The translations under genes were made by a program, and so were the position numbers. From the IMG/VR virus record IMGVR_UViG_3300048091_000143, positions 1 to 48,094 of that record: 48,094 nt of DNA; one strand, written 5' to 3'. This stretch comes from a virus. The notes beneath the pieces were generated by a model that saw only the letters and a program-made list of their open reading frames with translations, was not told the origin of the DNA and searched no databases. Of the stretch, positions 1,713-48,046 are shown piece by piece. Numbering within the stretch: position 1 is the first letter of the stretch; every line of letters begins with the position of its first letter.

Positions 1713-1744
1713 AAATTTTCAGCCCCGACCCCTTGCACGCCAAA

Positions 1745-3181
1745 ATGGCAAAACTGACACAGCGAACTCTTGAGGCCATCCGGCCAGATCAGGCGGGGTC
1801 GACGGTGCGCGACGAAGGCGGCCTACTCGGTCGCGTGCGCGTCAAATCGGACGGCTCGGTAACGGTCTCATTTTACTATCGCTACCGCTTTGGCGGGAAG
1901 TCGAAGGACTATTCCTGCGGCACCTGGCCGGCTGACGGCTTGTCGGCGATCCGGGCTGTACGGGACGGTGCGCGGGTAAAGGTCGCGGACGGCGTCGACC
2001 CGGGCGCGGACAAGAAGCTAGCGCGCCACGAGAAACAAGAGGCGGTCGCCGCTAAGCTCGCCGAGATTGAAGCCAAGCGCGTCGAAGACCTGACCGTGCA
2101 GGACATGTTCGACGCCTGGATGACGGACGGCGTGCGCCGGAAGGATGGTAACGCGGAGCTCAGGCGCATGTTTGTCGCCGACGTCCTGCCCGGACTGGGC
2201 GGCCGGGCGGTGAAGGCTGTGACCGAACACGATGTTCGCGCGGTCTTGCGCGCCTTAGTCGACCGCGGCGTCAACCGGACGGCGGTCGTTGTGCGCAACA
2301 GCCTGACGCAGATGTTCGCCTGGGCCCAGAAGCGCCAGCCGTGGCGCAAGCTCATGGTCGACGGTAACCCCATGGACCTGATTGAGATCGACAAAATCGT
2401 CTCACCTGATTACGACTTGGACAATCAGAGCGACCGGGTGCTGTCGCCGGAAGAGATTATCGAACTGCGCGATCTGCTGCAGCAGGCTGAGGATGAGTAC
2501 GCAAACGCCGCCGACAAGCGCCGCGCGCGCCGGCCTTTAGAGAAGACGACGCAGCGCGGAATCTGGATCATGCTATCAACCTTGTGCCGAGTCGGCGAGC
2601 TAAGCATGGCCAGATGGGAAGACGTTGACCTGGCCACCGGCGAGTGGTTCATACCGAAGGAAAACGTGAAGGGGAGCTTGGCCGATATGCGCATCTACCT
2701 GTCGCCCTTCGCCCTAGCGCAGTTCCAGCAACTGCACACGCTTACCGGGCACTCGGACTGGTGCTTCCCATCGTACGGCGGTAAGGATCATATCGACACC
2801 AAGTCGATGACCAAGCAAATCGGTGATCGGCAAGCCATGTTCAAGAAGGAAAAGGACGGCAAGCCGCGAGCGCCATTGAAGAACCGCCGCAGCGACAACA
2901 CACTCGTCCTGGGCAGTGGCAAAAATGGCACCTGGACGCCCCACGACCTGCGCCGGACCGGCGCGACCATGATGCAAGCACTTGGCGTTCCGCTCGACAC
3001 CATTGATCGATGCCAAAACCACGTCCTAGGCGGTAGCAAGGTGCGTCGGCACTACCTGCATCACGACTATGCAGACGAGAAGCGCACGGCTTGGTGTCTA
3101 TTAGGCCGGAAGCTTTCCGAACTTCTTGACGCCAACGGCCAATCTCTAAATGTTTTACAAATTAAACGCAAGGTCGCTTGA
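1745..3181 (+). CDS. int: P4-type tyrosine integrase
   Basis: The 478-residue protein has an N-terminal arm-binding domain of DUF4102 type (residues 1-90, LTQRTLEAIRPDQAG), a core-binding domain (about 115-215) and a catalytic domain with R282 (STLCRVGEL), H400 and R403 (TPHDLRRTG), H426 (CQNH) and nucleophile candidate Y437 (VRRHYLHHDY). All catalytic residues are present. I used ATG 1745 rather than TTG 1733 because the family normally begins right before KLT. It recombines phage attP with the tRNA-Pro 3' end. In the circular phage the early operon ending at 47867 would read into it across attP. Confidence 0.93.
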   Translation: MAKLTQRTLEAIRPDQAGSTVRDEGGLLGRVRVKSDGSVTVSFYYRYRFGGKSKDYSCGTWPADGLSAIRAVRDGARVKVADGVDPGADKKLARHEKQEAVAAKLAEIEAKRVEDLTVQDMFDAWMTDGVRRKDGNAELRRMFVADVLPGLGGRAVKAVTEHDVRAVLRALVDRGVNRTAVVVRNSLTQMFAWAQKRQPWRKLMVDGNPMDLIEIDKIVSPDYDLDNQSDRVLSPEEIIELRDLLQQAEDEYANAADKRRARRPLEKTTQRGIWIMLSTLCRVGELSMARWEDVDLATGEWFIPKENVKGSLADMRIYLSPFALAQFQQLHTLTGHSDWCFPSYGGKDHIDTKSMTKQIGDRQAMFKKEKDGKPRAPLKNRRSDNTLVLGSGKNGTWTPHDLRRTGATMMQALGVPLDTIDRCQNHVLGGSKVRRHYLHHDYADEKRTAWCLLGRKLSELLDANGQSLNVLQIKRKVA

Positions 3182-3260: not shown

Positions 3261-4103
3261 ATGAGTTTAGACCTACTAAAGCCCGACGAGAGATTACCGC
3301 CCATCTTATATAAGTTCTCGCCAGTCCGAGAATGGCTTCCATTGATGCTTTCCGGGCAATCCTTGAGATTCTCAAGTCGCCTTGATTTTAATGACCCATT
3401 TGACTGTCGCCCATACTTTCAAGTGGATTCAAGCAAAGATGCAAAGCGCAAACTCCATGAAACTCTTCGCGCTCATAAAGTTTCGCCTGCAAAACGTCTA
3501 GGGATCGTAAATAGCCTCACAAATTCCGGAAAAGATTTTATTAAATTTGAGGCAACACATACCCATTTAGATAAGACGGGAGTTCTATGCTTGACACCCT
3601 ACTGGGATAGCGCGCTGATGTGGTCCCATTACGCAGACCACCACAAAGGCATCTGTGTTGGCTTTCATAGCGATACAGACGTTTTCATTAGTGCAAACAA
3701 GGTTGTCTATGCTGACGAACTTCCGACGGTTACTACACCCGTTACTCTTAACAGAAAGTTTTATGACAACGTTTTCTTAACCAAGGCAAAGTGTTGGGAA
3801 TACGAGCAAGAATGGAGAGTAATAAAATCGAATATGAAAGAGGTTGATCGAGACGATCAATTTAGGGAATTTTGCTGCCATACTAGCGTTGAGCAGGCCA
3901 GATCGTTATCGGATCAAAAAGGCCCGGGAAATTACAACTTTTCAAAATCGTCAATCGAGAGTATTTGTCTTGGAATGCGTATTTCGAAACATAATGAGAA
4001 ATTAGTCTTAGAATCCATCGAGAAAGCTAGCCTAAAAATTAAAGTCTACAAGATATTAAACCCATCCACGACATACGAATTAACGAGATCGCCTATACGA
4101 TAG
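3261..4103 (+). CDS. DUF2971 family protein, AT-rich cargo
   Basis: This 280-residue protein shows hallmarks of DUF2971: a LYKF(SP) start region, FNDPFDC near residues 43-49 and the core LMWSHYADHHKGICVGFH near residue 120, then YEQEWR near 180. The biochemical role of the family is not established; members are often seen in mobile and defence neighbourhoods. The gene is much more AT-rich than the phage structural genes and follows the integrase, a classic cargo position. No good ribosome-binding site precedes the ATG. It is followed 57 bases later by a membrane protein on the same strand, probably one unit. Function as defence or exclusion is inference. Confidence 0.7.
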   Translation: MSLDLLKPDERLPPILYKFSPVREWLPLMLSGQSLRFSSRLDFNDPFDCRPYFQVDSSKDAKRKLHETLRAHKVSPAKRLGIVNSLTNSGKDFIKFEATHTHLDKTGVLCLTPYWDSALMWSHYADHHKGICVGFHSDTDVFISANKVVYADELPTVTTPVTLNRKFYDNVFLTKAKCWEYEQEWRVIKSNMKEVDRDDQFREFCCHTSVEQARSLSDQKGPGNYNFSKSSIESICLGMRISKHNEKLVLESIEKASLKIKVYKILNPSTTYELTRSPIR

Positions 4104-4160: not shown

Positions 4161-5039
4161 ATGAAGTTTCACCCAGAAAAAAGCCTTTTTGATCTTTCCA
4201 TCGTCCGCTGGACCTTTTTAATTACCGTTATTTTCGCCACCAGCACGACTGCAATCATCTTATGGAACTCTAATTTATATTTCAAGCCTGACTATGATGG
4301 CCTGAATAAATCAATAGAGATATTCAAGGTTCCCCTAGGCATGTTAGCAGTAGGTCTTTCCCTTATTGGTATCTGCGGCGCCAATCATCGATCTGAACAA
4401 ACAAAGCGACAGATTGAAAGAACTGGAACGCAGATTGCACTAACTCAGAGCCAGAACAATTTTGCCAACTATTACAAGCATATTGAAGAGTTCGACAAAT
4501 ATTGCGCAAAAATCTCGAGCGAAAAAGTTTCCGTGCACTCTACTCGAGAGGCGCACCGAAAGCTGTTCCCCAACTCCCGCGGAGGAGAATATGAAGTAAG
4601 CAACGACGCATCCACCATTCTTGACGACTCAATCAGCTCTTTTCTTATTGAAATTTTCAATTTCCAGGATTCTGCAGAGTTTCCTCCAGCACTTAAGAGG
4701 GCTCTGCAACTTCGGCAAGACTTATTGAAAAATTTTAGCGTCCAGCAGAGCGTTGGGAACACCAGCTCCGAATTCAAGATAGATAATGTAAATTACAAAA
4801 TATTTGATACGAGTTATGCAAACTTCATATCGGCATATGTTGAACTATTCACCTTCATAGACAAGGTTTTGAGTTTCGACGTAAACCATAAACCACCTGC
4901 AAACATGCTTTTCTTAAAGAACGTTGATGTTGCTGGATATAGAGGCCGCAGAATAAATCCATATAAGCCAGAGCCTCTAGAATTTGCAGAGATATTTGGA
5001 CATGATGCGTTTTCTTTTGTAATCAAGACACAAGCTTAA
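4161..5039 (+). CDS. Two-TM membrane protein, possible phage-exclusion effector
   Basis: The 292-residue protein has two N-terminal membrane segments (about 15-35 and 56-73) and a long cytoplasmic part with a Q-rich helix leading into NNFANYYKHIEEFDKY near residue 110. Short two-TM proteins with this NNF-YYKH-EEF motif are, as I recall, frequent in prophage and defence loci, some annotated as putative abortive-infection proteins; the exact family is uncertain. It is AT-rich like its upstream DUF2971 neighbour and lies in the same orientation. A membrane-acting defence or superinfection-exclusion role is inference. Confidence 0.55.
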   Translation: MKFHPEKSLFDLSIVRWTFLITVIFATSTTAIILWNSNLYFKPDYDGLNKSIEIFKVPLGMLAVGLSLIGICGANHRSEQTKRQIERTGTQIALTQSQNNFANYYKHIEEFDKYCAKISSEKVSVHSTREAHRKLFPNSRGGEYEVSNDASTILDDSISSFLIEIFNFQDSAEFPPALKRALQLRQDLLKNFSVQQSVGNTSSEFKIDNVNYKIFDTSYANFISAYVELFTFIDKVLSFDVNHKPPANMLFLKNVDVAGYRGRRINPYKPEPLEFAEIFGHDAFSFVIKTQA

Positions 5040-5117: not shown

Positions 5118-6446
5118 TCACGGCGTCGTAGGCTGCGATGCGGACGCTAAATCGAATGATGAAGACACCTCTCTCCCTGGTACGCCTAGAAGCCGCCCGG
5201 ATGTCGGGTCAAGCTTCTCGGCTACCAAAGCTGCCCAATCCAGCCACCTCTGAAGCTCCAGACTGATTGAAGTGCCGCTGATTGTGGCGGCGCCTTCAAG
5301 GTGCCGTATGTAATCCCGAATCGCCTGCGCTTCGCGCCAAGTGGTGGCCTCGCTGATGAGCGCGCGTTCACGCTCGATTTCTTGGGCGCGGATCGCGTCC
5401 TTCGCTGCTTGCGCGGCCCGCTGCCGCTGCAACTCCTCCTCGCGCAACCTAGCCGCCTCCGCCTCCGCAGCACGCTCCTCCTCCCGGGCCCGTGCGGCTG
5501 CTTCGTCGCGCCGCAGCTTCTCCGCCTCTTCGATGCGCCGGACGCGCTGCAAAGCCATGCAGCGGTAGATTCGCATCAGGATATCGTTCAACTGCGCCTC
5601 AAGCGGGCGCTCTGTGCTGTCGTTGAACCTGGTCTCGCTCCGATCAACCACGACCATCCGCAGGCGGCCGGCTGCCTTCCGCACCGTGGCGGGTACCATT
5701 CCGGGTACAACAGCACGCTTTGTGAGGTCGACTTGCTCGGAAATCCGAAGCCCGACATAGTCTCGGCCCAAGCTGATCTTTACTACGAGGTGTTCGGCCG
5801 AGGCGCGCATGCTCCTCGCCTCACAGGCCTTGATGATCGCGTCCCAGATTCGAAGCGCGCGATCAGCCGTCTCGATCGATACGCGCATTGGGGCAGAACA
5901 CGCTGAAAGGTCCATGATCCCGCCGCGGTCCTCGTAGTCGCGCCAGCTCGGGCTTGAAAATGCCTCCCAGTCCGGCTCCCATCGCTGACCCGGTTTTAGC
6001 TTGGGCGGATTTTCCAGCCGCTCGCGGGATCGCCGTAGCGCGGCGCATTCGGCGGACACTGCTTTCGCGGTGGATGCGACCAACCGATGCGGATTAGTCA
6101 ACTCGGCCTGCACCAGCACGGCGTTCTCCGGGGCAGTCTCGAAGGCGAGCCGCTCCTGCAACCAATTGTCGGGCTGCGGCGCAGGAGCGCTGTTACTAGC
6201 GTCTTCGGCCCGGGACGGGCGGGAGACAACGAAGGTCCGGCCATCGGTTGGCGGCAACGCAGGGATCGTCAGCTGGTGACCGGCCGCAGCCTTCGCCCAG
6301 TATCCGCGCGCGGGAAGCGGAATCGCCAGCGCTACGCACACCTTCCGCAGCCCGTTGTCGGACAATCCGTATTTTTTTGCGAGGGTGCTGATTGGGGATG
6401 ACCAAACCTCCCGGTACAGGGACTCCCGCTCAAATTCCACATCCAT
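5118..6446 (-). CDS. Unknown protein with N-terminal HTH and C-terminal coiled coil
   Basis: The 442-residue protein begins MDVEFERESLYREVWSSP and carries an HTH-like segment, LAKKYGLSDNGLRKVCVAL, followed by IPLPARGYWAK (to residue 52), a conserved head seen in many uncharacterised bacterial proteins. The middle is an alpha/beta region; residues about 290-375 are rich in E, R and A and predicted as coiled coil. GGAG lies eight bases ahead of the ATG at 6446; longer in-frame starts reach 6584 but would overlap the next gene. I do not know its function. Its place between cargo genes and the amidase cassette suggests it is cargo too. Confidence 0.6.
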   Translation of the reverse strand: MDVEFERESLYREVWSSPISTLAKKYGLSDNGLRKVCVALAIPLPARGYWAKAAAGHQLTIPALPPTDGRTFVVSRPSRAEDASNSAPAPQPDNWLQERLAFETAPENAVLVQAELTNPHRLVASTAKAVSAECAALRRSRERLENPPKLKPGQRWEPDWEAFSSPSWRDYEDRGGIMDLSACSAPMRVSIETADRALRIWDAIIKACEARSMRASAEHLVVKISLGRDYVGLRISEQVDLTKRAVVPGMVPATVRKAAGRLRMVVVDRSETRFNDSTERPLEAQLNDILMRIYRCMALQRVRRIEEAEKLRRDEAAARAREEERAAEAEAARLREEELQRQRAAQAAKDAIRAQEIERERALISEATTWREAQAIRDYIRHLEGAATISGTSISLELQRWLDWAALVAEKLDPTSGRLLGVPGREVSSSFDLASASQPTTP

Positions 6447-32765: not shown

Positions 32766-35240
32766 TTACACCACCGGCACTTGAACGTCGAAATTATCAC
32801 CGTTCGGCATTTGTACCGACACTCCGCACTTTGCCCCGGACGCCAGCGTGGACATCATCACGAAGCTCATCACGGCGCTGCTGTCCGTGGTTTCCGATGC
32901 AGAGTTGAAGCGCGCCACGGTACGCAGTTCTGGCGATGCTTCGTCGTATGCCGCCACCTTGATCCCGGAGAGGTTCGCGGCCGGGGCGTCCTTGGCGCTG
33001 TTGATGGTGAGCGTCACGGTACGCGCGACCAGTGCGGCCGTCGATGCGAGCGCCGATTTGATAGCGGCTGCCGCCAGCGGTGCGATGTGGGTGATGTTCT
33101 CGATACCGTACGGGTGCAGGCTGTCCGATGAGTTCGCGGTCGTGAACCATCCGGCGGTATCCACGTAGGTGACGCGTGACGGCGCCGAGCATGCCGCAAT
33201 TGCTGCTTGCAGCTGGCTCGCGTGCGCCGTGCCGTTGAACGGACGCAGCACAATGATCTTCGAGGTGGTCGTCGCGGCCAGCAGGCCGTTAAGTACCGTG
33301 GTCGCTGCGCTGGTGACATCGCTACCATCATTCGTGCCTTCCATCAGCACGATGAAATCAGGCTGCGATGCAAGCGAGCGTGCCACGCCTGAATACAAGT
33401 AATTGTAGGAGCTTGGCAGAGCCGGGACACTCCCCGATCCCGACACGTTGAATCCGGTCGCCCCGAATCCGACATTGCCGACTTCCGCGCCCAGGATGCG
33501 CCCCACTTCGAGCGACCAGCCCTGCCCCGCGTCGTTGCGGTCAGTGTCGTTCGTCGCGGTCATGTTCACCGTGCGTACGCCCTCGGTGATGCTGTCGCCG
33601 TAGAAGATCGCTTTCAAAGGCAGTGCGGGCGGCGCACCCAAGGTCTTGCCGGCGTCGAGTACGATGCCGGTCAGCTTGACGGCGGTCGCTTGCGTACTCC
33701 ATCGCGCCTGGGTCTCGGTCATGCTCTTGACCAGCACCTCCAGCAGATGCCCGCCCTTGTTCGCATAGTCAGCCGTGTCGCTCGGGATCGTGATGACCAC
33801 CGTTGCTGCGATAGGTACGCTGATCCAGGCGCCGAAGCGGTCCACGCGATACGAAATCTGAGGCAGCGGCGACGCGATGCCGGTCATGTCGAAATTCAGC
33901 GTGCAAGTCGTTCCGCCAAAGATCGCCTTGAAGTAGGCGCCGGCGTTGATGGTCTTCGCGCTCGATGCCTGAATGTCCCAGTTGTAGGGCGAGAACAGGA
34001 CGTTTGCGGTGCCATTGGACAGCGCATTGTTCGCTGTCGCAGCGACGTTGTTCGTAACCGACGACGGCCCGAAGCTGGCGGTTGCATTCCCCGCAGCATC
34101 CTGCAAACGCGGATTGCTCCCCGGCTGCGTGTAGGTGACAGTGATCGTGTCGCCGTACACATAAGGTGAGCTGACGGTAAGCGCAATGGTCTGGCCGGAA
34201 GGCGCTGCCACGCTGGTGACGGTTTTCCCGCCGGGTACCGCGAATGCCGATGCAGGTGGCGTGCTCGCGGCCAGCGCCTCATTCATCGTGATAGTGATGA
34301 TCGACGGCGATGCGTTCGTAACAACCGCGCTCTGGAACGCCGGGGCGGTCGTGTCAGTTGCCGCCGCCGTGTAGGTGATGCTTGACGGATTCGACAATGC
34401 CCCATCGTTCGCAACGCTGATGGTCTTGCCCCCCGCGCTGCTGGCAGTATAGGTGAACGTGGCCGTTGGCGTGCCGCTCGAAATGCTCACGCTCGTCGGT
34501 GCGAACGTGCCACCCGCGCCACCGTCCGATGGCGTCAGCACGACCGTTCCGGTAATCGTGCCGTTCGCGCCGACGGTAAATGCAGACGATGCCACACCTA
34601 CAGTGCCCGAGGTGGGCCCAGTCAGCGTGACGGCCGTTGCTCCAGTTGCCGCCGCCGCACTGTCGTTCGCATCATTGTCGAAGTGATACAGGGCCAGCAG
34701 ACCTGCACTGTTGTTAGCAATCGCCGCCGTGCGCGGCGTGAACGCGGCGGTGTGTTGGACGCTCGACCAGACCGCCAGTTCATCGACTTCACCGGCATAG
34801 GAGAATGAGCCGGACGCGAAGGTACGAACTTCAAAATTATTAGTGTAGATTGCCCCTGCGGCAGCCATCAGCGTGGCGCTCGACCCTACCAGCGCACCAT
34901 CCACATAGAACTTTGAGCCGGTCGTCGGATCGTAATCCCATTCGACATGGTGCTGCAAATTGTCGTTCAGCGCGATATTGCTGTTGAGCGTGATTTCCGT
35001 CCCGCCCGAGCCGTAATGAAGGACGATTTTGTACGCGCTGTCATGCCCAATCCAGAAGCAATTGAGCTGGCCGACCGCTACGTTGGTATTGCTGCCGTAG
35101 CCCTTGAGCCATACCTCAACAGTGAACGCGCCGGATGATGGGATAAGCGCCGAGCCAGTGGCCTTGCCACCATTGAGTGATGCGCCGAACTTGCCGGAGC
35201 TGTTATATGTCGCGGAGGTGGGAGTCAAATTGAACGACAT
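32766..35240 (-). CDS. Large LamG + Ig-like + SGNH-hydrolase virion protein
   Basis: The 824-residue protein has a LamG/concanavalin-like domain (about 10-190: FTVEVWLKGYGS, HHVEWDYDPTTGSKFYVDG), beta-sandwich repeats with a SwmB-like part (TTAPAFQSAVVTNASPSIIT, about 290-400) and an SGNH/GDSL hydrolase (about 540-735) with IFYGDSITEG, MEGTNDGSD and DSLHP as blocks I, III and V. It has no signal peptide, so a virion-borne esterase or deacetylase acting on surface polysaccharide is likely. It lies in the late operon upstream of terminase rather than near the spike. Confidence 0.75.
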   Translation of the reverse strand: MSFNLTPTSATYNSSGKFGASLNGGKATGSALIPSSGAFTVEVWLKGYGSNTNVAVGQLNCFWIGHDSAYKIVLHYGSGGTEITLNSNIALNDNLQHHVEWDYDPTTGSKFYVDGALVGSSATLMAAAGAIYTNNFEVRTFASGSFSYAGEVDELAVWSSVQHTAAFTPRTAAIANNSAGLLALYHFDNDANDSAAAATGATAVTLTGPTSGTVGVASSAFTVGANGTITGTVVLTPSDGGAGGTFAPTSVSISSGTPTATFTYTASSAGGKTISVANDGALSNPSSITYTAAATDTTAPAFQSAVVTNASPSIITITMNEALAASTPPASAFAVPGGKTVTSVAAPSGQTIALTVSSPYVYGDTITVTYTQPGSNPRLQDAAGNATASFGPSSVTNNVAATANNALSNGTANVLFSPYNWDIQASSAKTINAGAYFKAIFGGTTCTLNFDMTGIASPLPQISYRVDRFGAWISVPIAATVVITIPSDTADYANKGGHLLEVLVKSMTETQARWSTQATAVKLTGIVLDAGKTLGAPPALPLKAIFYGDSITEGVRTVNMTATNDTDRNDAGQGWSLEVGRILGAEVGNVGFGATGFNVSGSGSVPALPSSYNYLYSGVARSLASQPDFIVLMEGTNDGSDVTSAATTVLNGLLAATTTSKIIVLRPFNGTAHASQLQAAIAACSAPSRVTYVDTAGWFTTANSSDSLHPYGIENITHIAPLAAAAIKSALASTAALVARTVTLTINSAKDAPAANLSGIKVAAYDEASPELRTVARFNSASETTDSSAVMSFVMMSTLASGAKCGVSVQMPNGDNFDVQVPVV

Positions 35241-37460: not shown

Positions 37461-37604
37461 GGGCGAGCGACAACACTCAAGGCTGGGTACTGTCGCGAGT
37501 TCCGGTTATCGGTGGCGGTTGCCCGCGCATTACGAGGCCGGAAGAATGTAGGTCTACAGTTTACACGAATTGCTGTACGTTTACACAGCAATATGACGAT
37601 GTTG

Positions 37605-38150
37605 TCAGGCCGCCGGCCGTAACTTCGACGCCGCCCTGGCCGCGTGGCTGTCGGCAATGTTGTGCAGCTCGCTCACCATGTTCAGGGCGTGCTCACGAAC
37701 GAAGCCAGCGGCCATCGTCAGCTCGGCATTCCCCGACCCGCTGCAGCACCTGCAGGCGCGCGCCTCTTTCACGCCGGAGCCACCGCACGGCTCGCACTTC
37801 CCATCCAGCCAGTAGGCCAGCGAATGCTCGGCCACGCTTCGATACAGCTTCGCGGCCGCATCGGTATCCCATGCCGTGTTCTCCGGCACCCAGCGCCGCG
37901 CGCGTCCGCGCTTCACGACCTCCGCAGTCCACAGGCGCAGCAGCTGCGCCAGGTTGCCCGGATTGCCTTCGAACGTCGTGCGGGCTGCCGTGTCCGTGAA
38001 TTTCACACGGTGCAGAAGCGGCCCCAGATCGCCGGTCAGGTTCGCAGCAGCGAAGGCCGCAGCGATGAGCGGCTCGGCCTGGTGGTGACGCTCATCGTCC
38101 TTGAGGTTCGATGCGTTCAGTGCGTGGATGTAGCGATCTGCGAACCCCAT
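37605..38150 (-). CDS. Zinc-finger protein, likely Q-type late antiterminator
   Basis: The 181-residue protein carries CEPCGGSG (119-126) and CRCCSGSG (133-140), the DnaJ-like zinc motif found in one group of phage antitermination Q proteins, with basic flanks (VKRGRARRW). It is the last gene ahead of the late operon in the same direction, as Q is in lambdoid phages, and a terminator at 36716 awaits override. I use ATG 38150 rather than the ORF start at 38201. An alternative is a general DNA-binding regulator. Confidence 0.65.
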   Translation of the reverse strand: MGFADRYIHALNASNLKDDERHHQAEPLIAAAFAAANLTGDLGPLLHRVKFTDTAARTTFEGNPGNLAQLLRLWTAEVVKRGRARRWVPENTAWDTDAAAKLYRSVAEHSLAYWLDGKCEPCGGSGVKEARACRCCSGSGNAELTMAAGFVREHALNMVSELHNIADSHAARAASKLRPAA

Positions 38151-38219
38151 GATGTAACGCTCTCCAAAAGACGACTCTCCCAGCGTACCACATTCCACCA
38201 AGAAAGTTGCCTGCCCGAT

Positions 38220-41144: not shown

Positions 41145-41168
41145 GCTGAATGTTCCTTGCTTGGTTGC

Positions 41169-41969
41169 TTACGAAGGTGCGCGTTCGATGACGCGCGCGC
41201 CAGATGCATCGTGCAGCACCAGTGATGGCGCCTTGCGTTTCATGGTGCCGTCAGGCTGGCGGTAGTAGGTCGGCGCGCCGTGGAAGATCCCGCCAGGCGC
41301 GAAGGCCGCGTCGAAGATCTGCTCCGATGCCGCGCGCCCTTCCGGCGTCTTGAACATCACGCGCATGATCTCGGCGTTCACCGCCGCGTGGAGTGGCCGG
41401 TCGTTGAACTCGTCGCCGCGGTGAGCGGCCGAGTCCTCGACGCAGTACACGCCGATGAGCTCGACCAGGCCAATGTCCGGTTCGGGCAGCTCGGCCCTGT
41501 CGGACGGATTGCAGTTCAGGAGCTCCAGGCGCTGTTCCATCGTGGTAACGGCGTCGATCCGCGGAGCCATGTCGATGATGATGCGTCCAAGTGTTTGCTG
41601 GCATGCTCGCCCTGATCGCCAGCACGCTTCCAGCGACTCGATGTGCTTGCTCATCGCATCCAGGCGGTGTCGGTTGAATGGCGAGTCGCCTAGCCTCTTC
41701 GCATCACGGCGAGCGCGCCTAAGCTGGGTCCATCGCTGGGCGGTAGTCTCATAGTTGTCGCGAACGAAGTGGCGCACGAGCGCAAACGAGACAAGCACGC
41801 TCCCGTCATCGCAAAAGGCTCCGTTGTCAATCGCCTGCTTTACCCGTGCAGCCATCCCTACAGTGGCGCTCATCGTCTGCATACTTCTGTCCTGTGGTTT
41901 CGTCAAAATTTGGGCGTAAAGAGTCCCTGCGCCGGCCGGGTTAGCGGCGGCGCTATTCATTGGCTTCAT
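41169..41969 (-). CDS. Unknown 266-residue early protein
   Basis: The protein has helical segments (TTAQRWTQLRRARRDAKRLG) and a C-terminal beta region (YYRQPDGTMKRKAPSLVLHD). I do not recognise a family. It is first after Cro in the leftward early operon, where lambda has cII, but no HTH is seen. ATG 41969 has poor spacing; ATG 41885 with AGGA upstream is an alternative start that would remove 28 residues. Confidence 0.55.
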   Translation of the reverse strand: MKPMNSAAANPAGAGTLYAQILTKPQDRSMQTMSATVGMAARVKQAIDNGAFCDDGSVLVSFALVRHFVRDNYETTAQRWTQLRRARRDAKRLGDSPFNRHRLDAMSKHIESLEACWRSGRACQQTLGRIIIDMAPRIDAVTTMEQRLELLNCNPSDRAELPEPDIGLVELIGVYCVEDSAAHRGDEFNDRPLHAAVNAEIMRVMFKTPEGRAASEQIFDAAFAPGGIFHGAPTYYRQPDGTMKRKAPSLVLHDASGARVIERAPS

Positions 41970-42224: not shown

Positions 42225-42241
42225 TGCTCCTTTAAGTCACT

Positions 42242-42351
42242 CAAATAGTACAAGTAATTGCTAGTTTGAGCAAGGCCAATAATAGTTTGTGTGTGGTAGC
42301 CATCCGGCGGGTGCTGCTCTATACTTGCGACTCCTACAATTAAATAGTTGT
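42242..42351. promoter_or_regulatory. Operator region between cro and the CI-like gene
   Basis: A leftward promoter has TTGCTC (42273-42268) and TACTAT (42250-42245) with a 17-base spacer. Half-site-like copies of ACAAACTA occur at 42260-42268 (CAAACTAGC), 42281-42290 (ACAAACTATT) and 42342-42351 (ACAACTATTT), read on the minus strand. Similar CAAA-ACTA words recur at the early promoter 43231-43293. A rightward -10 (TATACT, 42320-42325) has no clear -35. Confidence 0.55.
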
Positions 42352-42360
42352 CTCCACAAT

Positions 42361-43161
42361 ATGAGTTCAAACCTTGGCTCCCTGATTCGTGTTTATCGTA
42401 TTCGTAAAGGTCTAAGCCAAGCAGACTTGGCCGCGAAGATCGGCGTATCGCAAGGCGCAATTGGCCAGTGGGAGCGAGGGGAATTCAGGCCGCGGGGTAA
42501 GCACATTAATGGTCTACAGGAGATCCTGGGGCTTACGGCCGAAGCTATAGAGAGGGAGGCTGCAAGGGACGACGGTACTGGCCAAATAGCTAGCGGAGCC
42601 CCTGATGAAGCGGTGGGCAGTGAGGAATCCGAAAGTAAAATACCGCACCTAGGCGAGGACCCGCGTAAATGGGCAATGGCGGAGGAGTCACTGGAACGTC
42701 TGCGGGCTGCCGAGCATCACACAAAGAGTGGCGAGTTCGAGATCGCATTGTTTTCCTTGCTCTCGCACATTGATGGCGATATTCGCAGCCATGTGAGTAT
42801 CGCAGGGCCAGCCTCCAGACATTGGATTGTCGACTGCATTACGCATCGAAGTGTGGTTGAAGTAAAGCATCCTCGCTCATACGTTCACATAGAGAGTTTG
42901 ATAGCACAAACGTGTTGGAGGCTCGCGGTACTCAGGGCGCTCATGGGGGACGAAAAAAAGTACGTTGCCGTCATTAGGCGGCCGCCACTAGAGCCACTTC
43001 CTGAGCATGCCCTACCTTTCTACGAAAAGAAACTAGCGGCCTTAGCGATAGAGGCTGACCTAGTAGGAATAAGCTTGGTGGTCGCAGACACGCCAGAACA
43101 GGTAGCCAAAGCCATAGAGGACTTGGAAAATTCTCTCGGCCTGGGCCGCTCCCTCGACTGA
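42361..43161 (+). CDS. CI-like repressor with PD-(D/E)XK nuclease-like C-terminal domain
   Basis: The 266-residue protein has an HTH_3 domain (1-60: LIRVYRIRKGLSQADLAAKI, GVSQGAIGQWERGEF) and an acidic linker (61-100). There is no S24/LexA Ala-Gly cleavage site or Ser-Lys dyad. Instead residues about 125-205 give GEFEIALFSLL, HWIVDCITHRSVVEVK (D158, E167, K169) and a helix with Q183, the order of PD-(D/E)XK nucleases. It lies divergent from cro, so it is the probable prophage repressor. Whether the domain cuts, or only senses, DNA is unknown. Confidence 0.7.
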   Translation: MSSNLGSLIRVYRIRKGLSQADLAAKIGVSQGAIGQWERGEFRPRGKHINGLQEILGLTAEAIEREAARDDGTGQIASGAPDEAVGSEESESKIPHLGEDPRKWAMAEESLERLRAAEHHTKSGEFEIALFSLLSHIDGDIRSHVSIAGPASRHWIVDCITHRSVVEVKHPRSYVHIESLIAQTCWRLAVLRALMGDEKKYVAVIRRPPLEPLPEHALPFYEKKLAALAIEADLVGISLVVADTPEQVAKAIEDLENSLGLGRSLD

Positions 43162-43180
43162 GATTCACAGATTCTGAGTG

Positions 43181-43206
43181 AAGCGCACTGATGTGCGCTT
43201 TTTTTT
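43181..43206 (+). terminator. Intrinsic terminator after the repressor gene
   Basis: AAGCGCAC and GTGCGCTT form a perfect 8-bp stem with a TGAT loop followed by six T residues. It insulates the repressor transcript from the early operon. Confidence 0.85.
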
Positions 43207-43230: not shown

Positions 43231-43293
43231 CAAAACACTACAAAAACTATTTGACAAGCAGTTTCTTGTCCCGCTAAACTGTGCAAACACTAT
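43231..43293 (+). promoter_or_regulatory. Strong rightward early promoter with repressor-like sites (PL-like)
   Basis: TTGACA (43251-43256) and TAAACT (43275-43280) are 18 bases apart. CAAAACACTA (43231), CAAAAACTAT (43241) and CAAACACTAT (43284) flank the promoter and resemble the words in the cI/cro region. It should drive the genes from 43353 to 47867. The first gene has CAGAGGTAACC before its ATG. Confidence 0.7.
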
Positions 43294-43352
43294 ACATGAG
43301 GCACAGTTTGGCTGATTCTCTGGCTCGCCTCAGTAACTGACCAGAGGTAACC

Positions 43353-43667
43353 ATGACCGCACTACAGCAAGCAGCACCCAGCATCCAGGCGATCAAGCTG
43401 CCGCTCGCCTACAGCTCCCATCGCCAGATCATGGACGCAGATCGCAACCTGGCCATCGAGGTATTTTCGGGCGGACCTGGGATTGAAGCGGCAGACCAGT
43501 TGCAAGAGCTCGTTGTCGTTGCCTGCAATTCCTTTGCGCTGATGGTGAAGGCTCTGAAGGCCGCCGAGGACCTGTCGCGCACCGGACTGCTTAACGCCCC
43601 TGATGGCGAAATCGCTCGCGTGAACGAACTGCGTCGCATCGCCCTTGCCGCAGCAGGTGCAGCATGA
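43353..43667 (+). CDS. Unknown 104-residue early protein
   Basis: The protein begins MTALQQAAPSIQAIKLPLAY and is helical (LQELVVVACNSFALMVKALK). It is the first gene of the rightward early operon and its stop overlaps the start of the antirepressor gene (ATGA). No family recognised; position suggests a host-takeover or regulatory role. Confidence 0.55.
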   Translation: MTALQQAAPSIQAIKLPLAYSSHRQIMDADRNLAIEVFSGGPGIEAADQLQELVVVACNSFALMVKALKAAEDLSRTGLLNAPDGEIARVNELRRIALAAAGAA

Positions 43668-44473
43668 GTGACCTGGTCATTATCCGCGGTGACGAACTCG
43701 TGACGACCACGCTGGCGATTTCCGCCGGGACCGCTAACACGCACGAGAGCGTTATCAAGCTGGTGCGCGCCTACCAGGAAGACTTGGAAGAGTTCGGAGG
43801 GGTCCGATTTGAAATCGAACCCTTTGAGACCGCCGGTGGACAACAGAAACGTGAGATCGCGCTGCTCAACGAGGACCAGGCGACGCTGCTGATCACCTAC
43901 ATGCGCAACAACGTAATCGTGCGAAAGTTCAAGATTGCGCTCGTCCGCAGCTTTGCCGACATGCGCCGGCGCCTCGCCTCCCAAACTGCCCCGGCGGTTC
44001 CGAATTTCGCTGACGAGATCGAGGCTGCTTATGCCTGGATCGCTGCCAAGAAAGAAGCACGCGAAGAAGCGGCGCGCGCCAACCATGAGGCCGCGAAGGC
44101 TGCGCAGCTGGAGCATCAGGTCGCGGAACTGGCGCCGGCCGCAGCCGGCCTTGAGCTGATCGCCGGCGCCGATGGCACGATGTGCATCACCGACGCAGCC
44201 AAAACACTGCAGATGCAGCCGCATAAGCTGCGCGACGCCCTGCTTGAGATGAAGTGGATGTACCGCCGCCAGGGCAAGGCTGGATACGTCGCATACCAGC
44301 CGACGATCCACGCCGGCCACCTGGTGCACAAGGTGGCGAACTATCAGGATCCAGAAACGGGCGAACAAAAGAGCAATGCCCAGGTGCTCGTTACGAGGAA
44401 AGGCTTGGCCAAGCTGGCTAAGCTGCTCAGCATCCCGGGCGCGCCGCCCAGTCCGGGCCCGCGCCTGAATTAA
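43664..44473 (+). CDS. rha: Rha-family regulator with KilAC-type C-terminus (antirepressor)
   Basis: The 269-residue protein has a Rha-like N-terminal domain (TNTHESVIKLVRAYQEDLEE is close to the THESVIKLVR signature, then ALLNEDQATLLITYMRNN) and a KilAC/ANT-like C-terminal domain (DGTMCITDAAKTLQMQPHKL, WMYRRQGKAGYVAYQ). Such proteins act as antirepressors or lytic regulators. The Ala-rich coiled region (115-165) links the domains. It is the second gene in the early operon and may counter the repressor at 42361. Confidence 0.85.
   Translation: MSDLVIIRGDELVTTTLAISAGTANTHESVIKLVRAYQEDLEEFGGVRFEIEPFETAGGQQKREIALLNEDQATLLITYMRNNVIVRKFKIALVRSFADMRRRLASQTAPAVPNFADEIEAAYAWIAAKKEAREEAARANHEAAKAAQLEHQVAELAPAAAGLELIAGADGTMCITDAAKTLQMQPHKLRDALLEMKWMYRRQGKAGYVAYQPTIHAGHLVHKVANYQDPETGEQKSNAQVLVTRKGLAKLAKLLSIPGAPPSPGPRLN

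Positions 44474-47952: not shown

Positions 47953-48046
<94 letters not shown>

Follow-up and report, generated by a model that had tools for sequence, protein, structure and literature searches.

The gene at 42361-43161 of the window, a virus record of 48,094 bp analysed over its whole length, probably encodes a lysogeny repressor that lacks an S24 domain, was brought in by cassette exchange, and carries a C-terminal domain most likely of the PD-(D/E)XK type. What is unusual in this prophage repressor is its effector domain; no earlier fusion of a repressor with a PD-(D/E)XK domain was found described in the open-access literature searched.

The window contains a complete integrated prophage of roughly 46.5 kb, which also encodes a gpA-type terminase and a Mu-like baseplate. 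Its boundaries and integrase are as follows.

1499-1563 and 47953-48017: attL and attR, directly repeated over about 65 bp; the right-hand one overlaps tRNA-Pro(GGG)
1733-3181: integrase

Two accessory genes adjoin the integrase (3261-4103 and 4161-5039) and may be cargo or defence genes; one has a DUF2971 match (7.4e-8) and the other has no Pfam match. A GDSL lipase/acylhydrolase domain (1.3e-10) was also seen in a large tail-region protein (32766-35240).

Within the prophage, the gene order around the repressor is a divergent Cro/YdaS-like gene, the repressor, a gene for a 104-aa protein, and a Rha-KilAC gene, with a conserved early gene on the far side.

41169..41969, minus strand: conserved early gene flanking the opposite end of the cassette; its protein and the L018 counterpart share 75% identity
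41985..42224, minus strand: divergent Cro/YdaS-like gene (Pfam YdaS_toxin 1.1e-11, P22_Cro 3.1e-8)
42361..43161, plus strand: repressor gene in the cI position, 266 aa, with a helix-turn-helix (HTH) and a nuclease-like C-terminal domain (open reading frame, translation and coding pattern)
42385..42540, plus strand: N-terminal XRE/cI-type HTH, residues 9-60
43353..43667, plus strand: opening gene of the rha operon, encoding a 104-aa protein without assigned function; its start codon is exactly where homology to L018 restarts
43664..44473, plus strand: Rha (pRha) plus KilAC (ANT) protein of the regulatory or antirepressor type (Pfam ANT 3.2e-25, Phage_pRha 2.8e-15)

The repressor reading frame runs from an ATG at 42361 to a stop at 43161. 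Codon-position GC in its C-terminal half is 0.63/0.42/0.57, and 20 and 14 stops interrupt the two remaining frames of that strand; the gene is thus coding over its full length. No obvious ribosome-binding site precedes the ATG. GC3 is 0.52-0.57, against 0.64-0.76 in the neighbouring genes, which fits a recent acquisition or import. The HTH is a normal one, as the first-pass annotation had described: residues 9-60 match HTH_3 (Pfam, 6.7e-12), the PHROG match is to transcriptional repressors, and AlphaFold pLDDT over the HTH is about 70-91. Peptidase_S24 was absent from the Pfam matches even at E<=10, in agreement with that annotation's report of a missing LexA/S24 cleavage domain. Its further proposal, that RecA-driven self-cleavage is improbable, gains support from the same result: because an S24 domain went undetected in the repressor, RecA-stimulated self-cleavage of the 42361-43161 protein would be unlikely.

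Comparison with related phages points to an exchange at this locus. S24 repressors occupy the same slot in L018 (4.4e-13), L003 (1.6e-12) and L019 (4.6e-7), and the L020 repressor has a borderline S24 match (5.7e-5, just under the Pfam cut-off). These LexA/cI-type proteins resemble the window repressor in their slot, their neighbours and their divergence from a Cro-type gene, but they carry Peptidase_S24, whereas the window repressor lacks it and has an unrelated C-terminal domain. L018 is the most syntenic relative, with flanking genes 77-81% identical, and its DNA homology covers 41154-41947 and 43353-43667 at 77.6 and 80.6% identity. Between these segments cro, the operators, cI and the rha-operon promoter all differ and have been replaced as one cassette. 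Since S24 repressors fill the same slot in L018, L003 and L019, the window phage appears to have traded a cleavable S24 repressor for one without S24. The gene has the setting of a cI/XRE-type repressor, being divergent from a Cro-type gene, flanked by conserved early genes and situated within an integrated prophage; this divergent Cro and the swap against S24 repressors uphold its original placement as a prophage repressor in the cI position, and its assignment as the repressor of the immunity cassette is supported by the sequence comparison. A comparable arrangement is known from the Rac prophage of E. coli, in which RacR represses the divergent ydaS (PMC5700373). There too a repressor stands divergent from a YdaS-type Cro gene, but RacR is 158 aa by annotation, too short to hold a domain of the size that follows the HTH in the window repressor. 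In L003, a second HTH protein (5549-6004) takes the place of the 104-aa gene ahead of rha.

The nuclease-like assignment concerns the part of the protein beyond the HTH.

42664..43158, plus strand: C-terminal domain, residues 102-266 (full-length AlphaFold model, low confidence)
42832..42834, plus strand: D158, candidate metal ligand ending the second strand (HWIVD), from the sequence
42859..42867, plus strand: E167-V-K169, candidate ExK motif on the third strand (VVEVK), from the sequence
42907..42909, plus strand: Q183, in the next predicted helix, from the sequence

Residues E125, E127, D158, E167, K169 and Q183 are all present, in the E...D158...E167-x-K169...Q183 order that had been read from the C-terminal half at first pass, and they follow the PD-(D/E)XK residue order with its hydrophobic strand context. 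Composition shuffles of the domain show the motif in such a context in 0.35% of cases, and background ORF windows in 4 of 419 (about 1%), which is above chance, yet weak for one gene picked from the whole window. Run on the full-length repressor as a single sequence, AlphaFold predicts the order helix 125-135, strands 143-148, 154-159, 166-170 and (173-177), helix 180-195, strand 201-206, helix 215-223, strand 237-242 and helix 245-259. This is the order of elements of a PD-(D/E)XK domain, with D158 on the second strand and E167-x-K169 on the third. The alpha-beta-beta-beta-alpha-beta order comes at very low pLDDT, with block means of about 28-60 over the C-terminal domain, and is absent when the domain is modelled alone, which yields an all-helical structure unlike the full-length model. 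Structure prediction therefore divides on the proposed domain, favouring it in the whole protein, together with the motif, and going against it in the isolated domain and in model confidence.

Sequence and profile comparisons gave the proposal no further backing. The C-terminal domain has zero matches in Pfam, PHROG, NCBIfam or PDB sequences at E<=10, and hhalign against Mrr, Shedu SduA, NERD and PDDEXK_1 scored no better than shuffles in what is a low-power test; a GNAT control profile outscored the nuclease profiles. Because known nuclease families mostly missed each other in the same test, this null result does not count against the fold. Mrr_cat, Shedu SduA_C, NERD and PDDEXK_1 share with the window domain the order and type of conserved residues and the predicted order of helices and strands, and differ from it in that sequence or profile similarity went undetected by that low-power test. 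When the full-length model was searched by fold against PDB and BFVD, the HTH dominated the matches; the best structural match beyond it, A0A6J5P0W0 (231 columns, E 6e-7, TM 0.25), is uninterpretable because the model is so poor. A PD-(D/E)XK fold is plausible and fairly probable.

The competing reading that survives best, possible though clearly the less probable of the two, accepts a non-S24 cassette repressor but takes the motif as coincidental, the C-terminal domain then being of another alpha/beta kind, unrelated to PD-(D/E)XK, that oligomerises or binds an antirepressor. The background rate of the motif, for a gene chosen from the whole window, would suit coincidence, and the lack of family matches, the isolated-domain model and the GNAT score would all suit an unrelated domain, as would the non-cleavable repressors known in Gifsy phages (PMC3121763). 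Against coincidence stands the full-length model, whose order puts E, D, ExK and Q where a PD-(D/E)XK domain needs them.

Searches for homologues returned the HTH or nothing. Matches to the C-terminal domain by tblastn at E<=10, across 50,697 phage and 72,556 plasmid records, were HTH-only or due to chance; eight plasmid or phage matches were inspected, and none of the four of their proteins examined has a comparable domain. A genome scan gave matches to the HTH alone; across one phylum, 392 genomes held zero homologues of the repressor. Peptide-pattern scans of IMG/VR also returned zero homologues, but these scans are insensitive: a scan with the 104-aa gene missed the known relative of that gene in L018. 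The lack of matches therefore does not show that the protein is rare.

How such a repressor would act on DNA was considered from its two flanking intergenic regions.

42225..42360, no strand assigned: cI-cro intergenic region with three AATAGT-core candidate operators at 42244, 42281 and 42343 (plus strand), suggestive
42297..42325, plus strand: promoter-like site of the repressor gene, TAGCCA-17-TATACT (consensus scan)
43180..43201, plus strand: terminator-like hairpin 3' of the repressor gene
43246..43280, plus strand: promoter-like site of the 104-aa/rha operon, TTGACA-18-TAAACT at 43251-43280
L003 4628-4706 and 5405-5548: regions of a 40-bp operator-like block in that relative

The heptamer AAATAGT has four copies in 48 kb, three of them within the two intergenic regions, and zero copies in L018; its reverse-strand copy at 43246 overlaps the promoter-like site of the rha operon, over the -35. 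Because unbiased statistics are weak (the best shared pair was matched in 17 of 100 shuffles, and some hexamer occurred at least four times in 251 of 2000), the AATAGT-core sites rank as candidate operators only. The relatives give a clearer pattern. In L003, one 40-bp operator-like block occurs both between cI and cro and at the promoter that follows, which 0 of 100 shuffles reproduced; L018 has related palindromes, TTAAGCTGGCTTAA / TTAAGTGCGCTTAA, in the two corresponding regions. These shared elements suggest that the rha operon is probably under cI control in this phage group, and that operators travel with their repressor. At the rha-operon promoter, an inverted repeat, GCTAAACTGTGC / GCACAGTTTGGC, with 12-nt arms (92%) at 43273-43312 overlaps the -10 and the start region.

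The question of what would relieve a repressor that is not cleaved leads to the antirepressor genes. GfoR/GtgR, lysogenic repressors of Gifsy prophages, stay uncleaved during induction, when small antirepressors inactivate them (PMC3121763); they are non-cleaved repressors of the kind proposed for the window. The Gifsy antirepressors are LexA-controlled and lie outside the immunity region, whereas such a pair was not identified in the window. There, exact CTGT-N8-ACAG sites number two, at 1474 and 37573, a count not above chance, and no clear antirepressor gene follows either of them. The perfect, LexA-box-like site at 37573-37588, extended as TGCTGTGTAAACGTACAGCA on the minus strand, lies just downstream of the gene at 37605-38201.

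That the Rha/KilAC antirepressor drives induction in place of RecA cleavage, one of the routes raised at first pass, now looks doubtful. The gene is found directly downstream and has a promoter-like site of its own, over which a candidate operator lies, and the inactivation of non-cleavable Gifsy repressors by antirepressors (PMC3121763) offers a parallel. However, rha adjoins S24 repressors in L003 and in L005/L018, and the rha-operon promoter has no LexA-type box. Since phages with S24 repressors have rha too, Rha/KilAC, although it could serve the window phage as antirepressor, would not be a special substitute for cleavage, which weakens the original suggestion.

Two further readings give the C-terminal domain catalytic activity. 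The first has a PD-(D/E)XK nuclease capable of catalysis as the switching domain, which would tie immunity to DNA recognition or cleavage in place of the RecA/S24 switch; it is unlikely on present evidence. The second, somewhat less likely again, is a bifunctional repressor-nuclease, combining lysogen immunity with a putative DNase that might attack incoming DNA or be switched by DNA ends; its putative catalytic residues are complete, but PADLOC defence models match only the shared HTH and the PD-(D/E)XK fold is itself no more than plausible. Last, it is very improbable that 42361-43161 has an accessory regulatory role and that the true repressor is a different gene: although its repressor role follows from position and HTH only, the conserved flanks enclose no other cI-type gene and it sits exactly where the relatives have their S24 repressors.

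We therefore return to the non-S24, cassette-exchanged repressor as the favoured reading. Its XRE HTH would bind the candidate operators in the cI-cro region and keep lytic genes off, probably binding also at the promoter of the 104-aa/rha operon; cro, operators, repressor and rha-operon promoter have been swapped as a unit against the S24, RecA-cleavable version of the relatives. The C-terminal domain, most likely of PD-(D/E)XK type with its E/D/ExK/Q residues, would supply oligomerisation and the switching input. It may act in oligomerisation, protein-partner binding or DNA-structure recognition; we infer an induction outside the SOS response, and our preference is for a non-cleavable repressor whose hold is lifted by a partner protein, or by a DNA structure to which this domain binds.

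In this phage group the immunity cassette is exchanged and its flanking early genes stay in place, and a self-cleaving repressor that senses DNA damage has apparently given way to one whose effector domain is entirely different. If the nuclease fold is true, the repressor may sense the state of DNA in an unusual way, or couple repression to DNA cleavage, and these otherwise similar phages would permit a simple comparison of SOS-independent induction.
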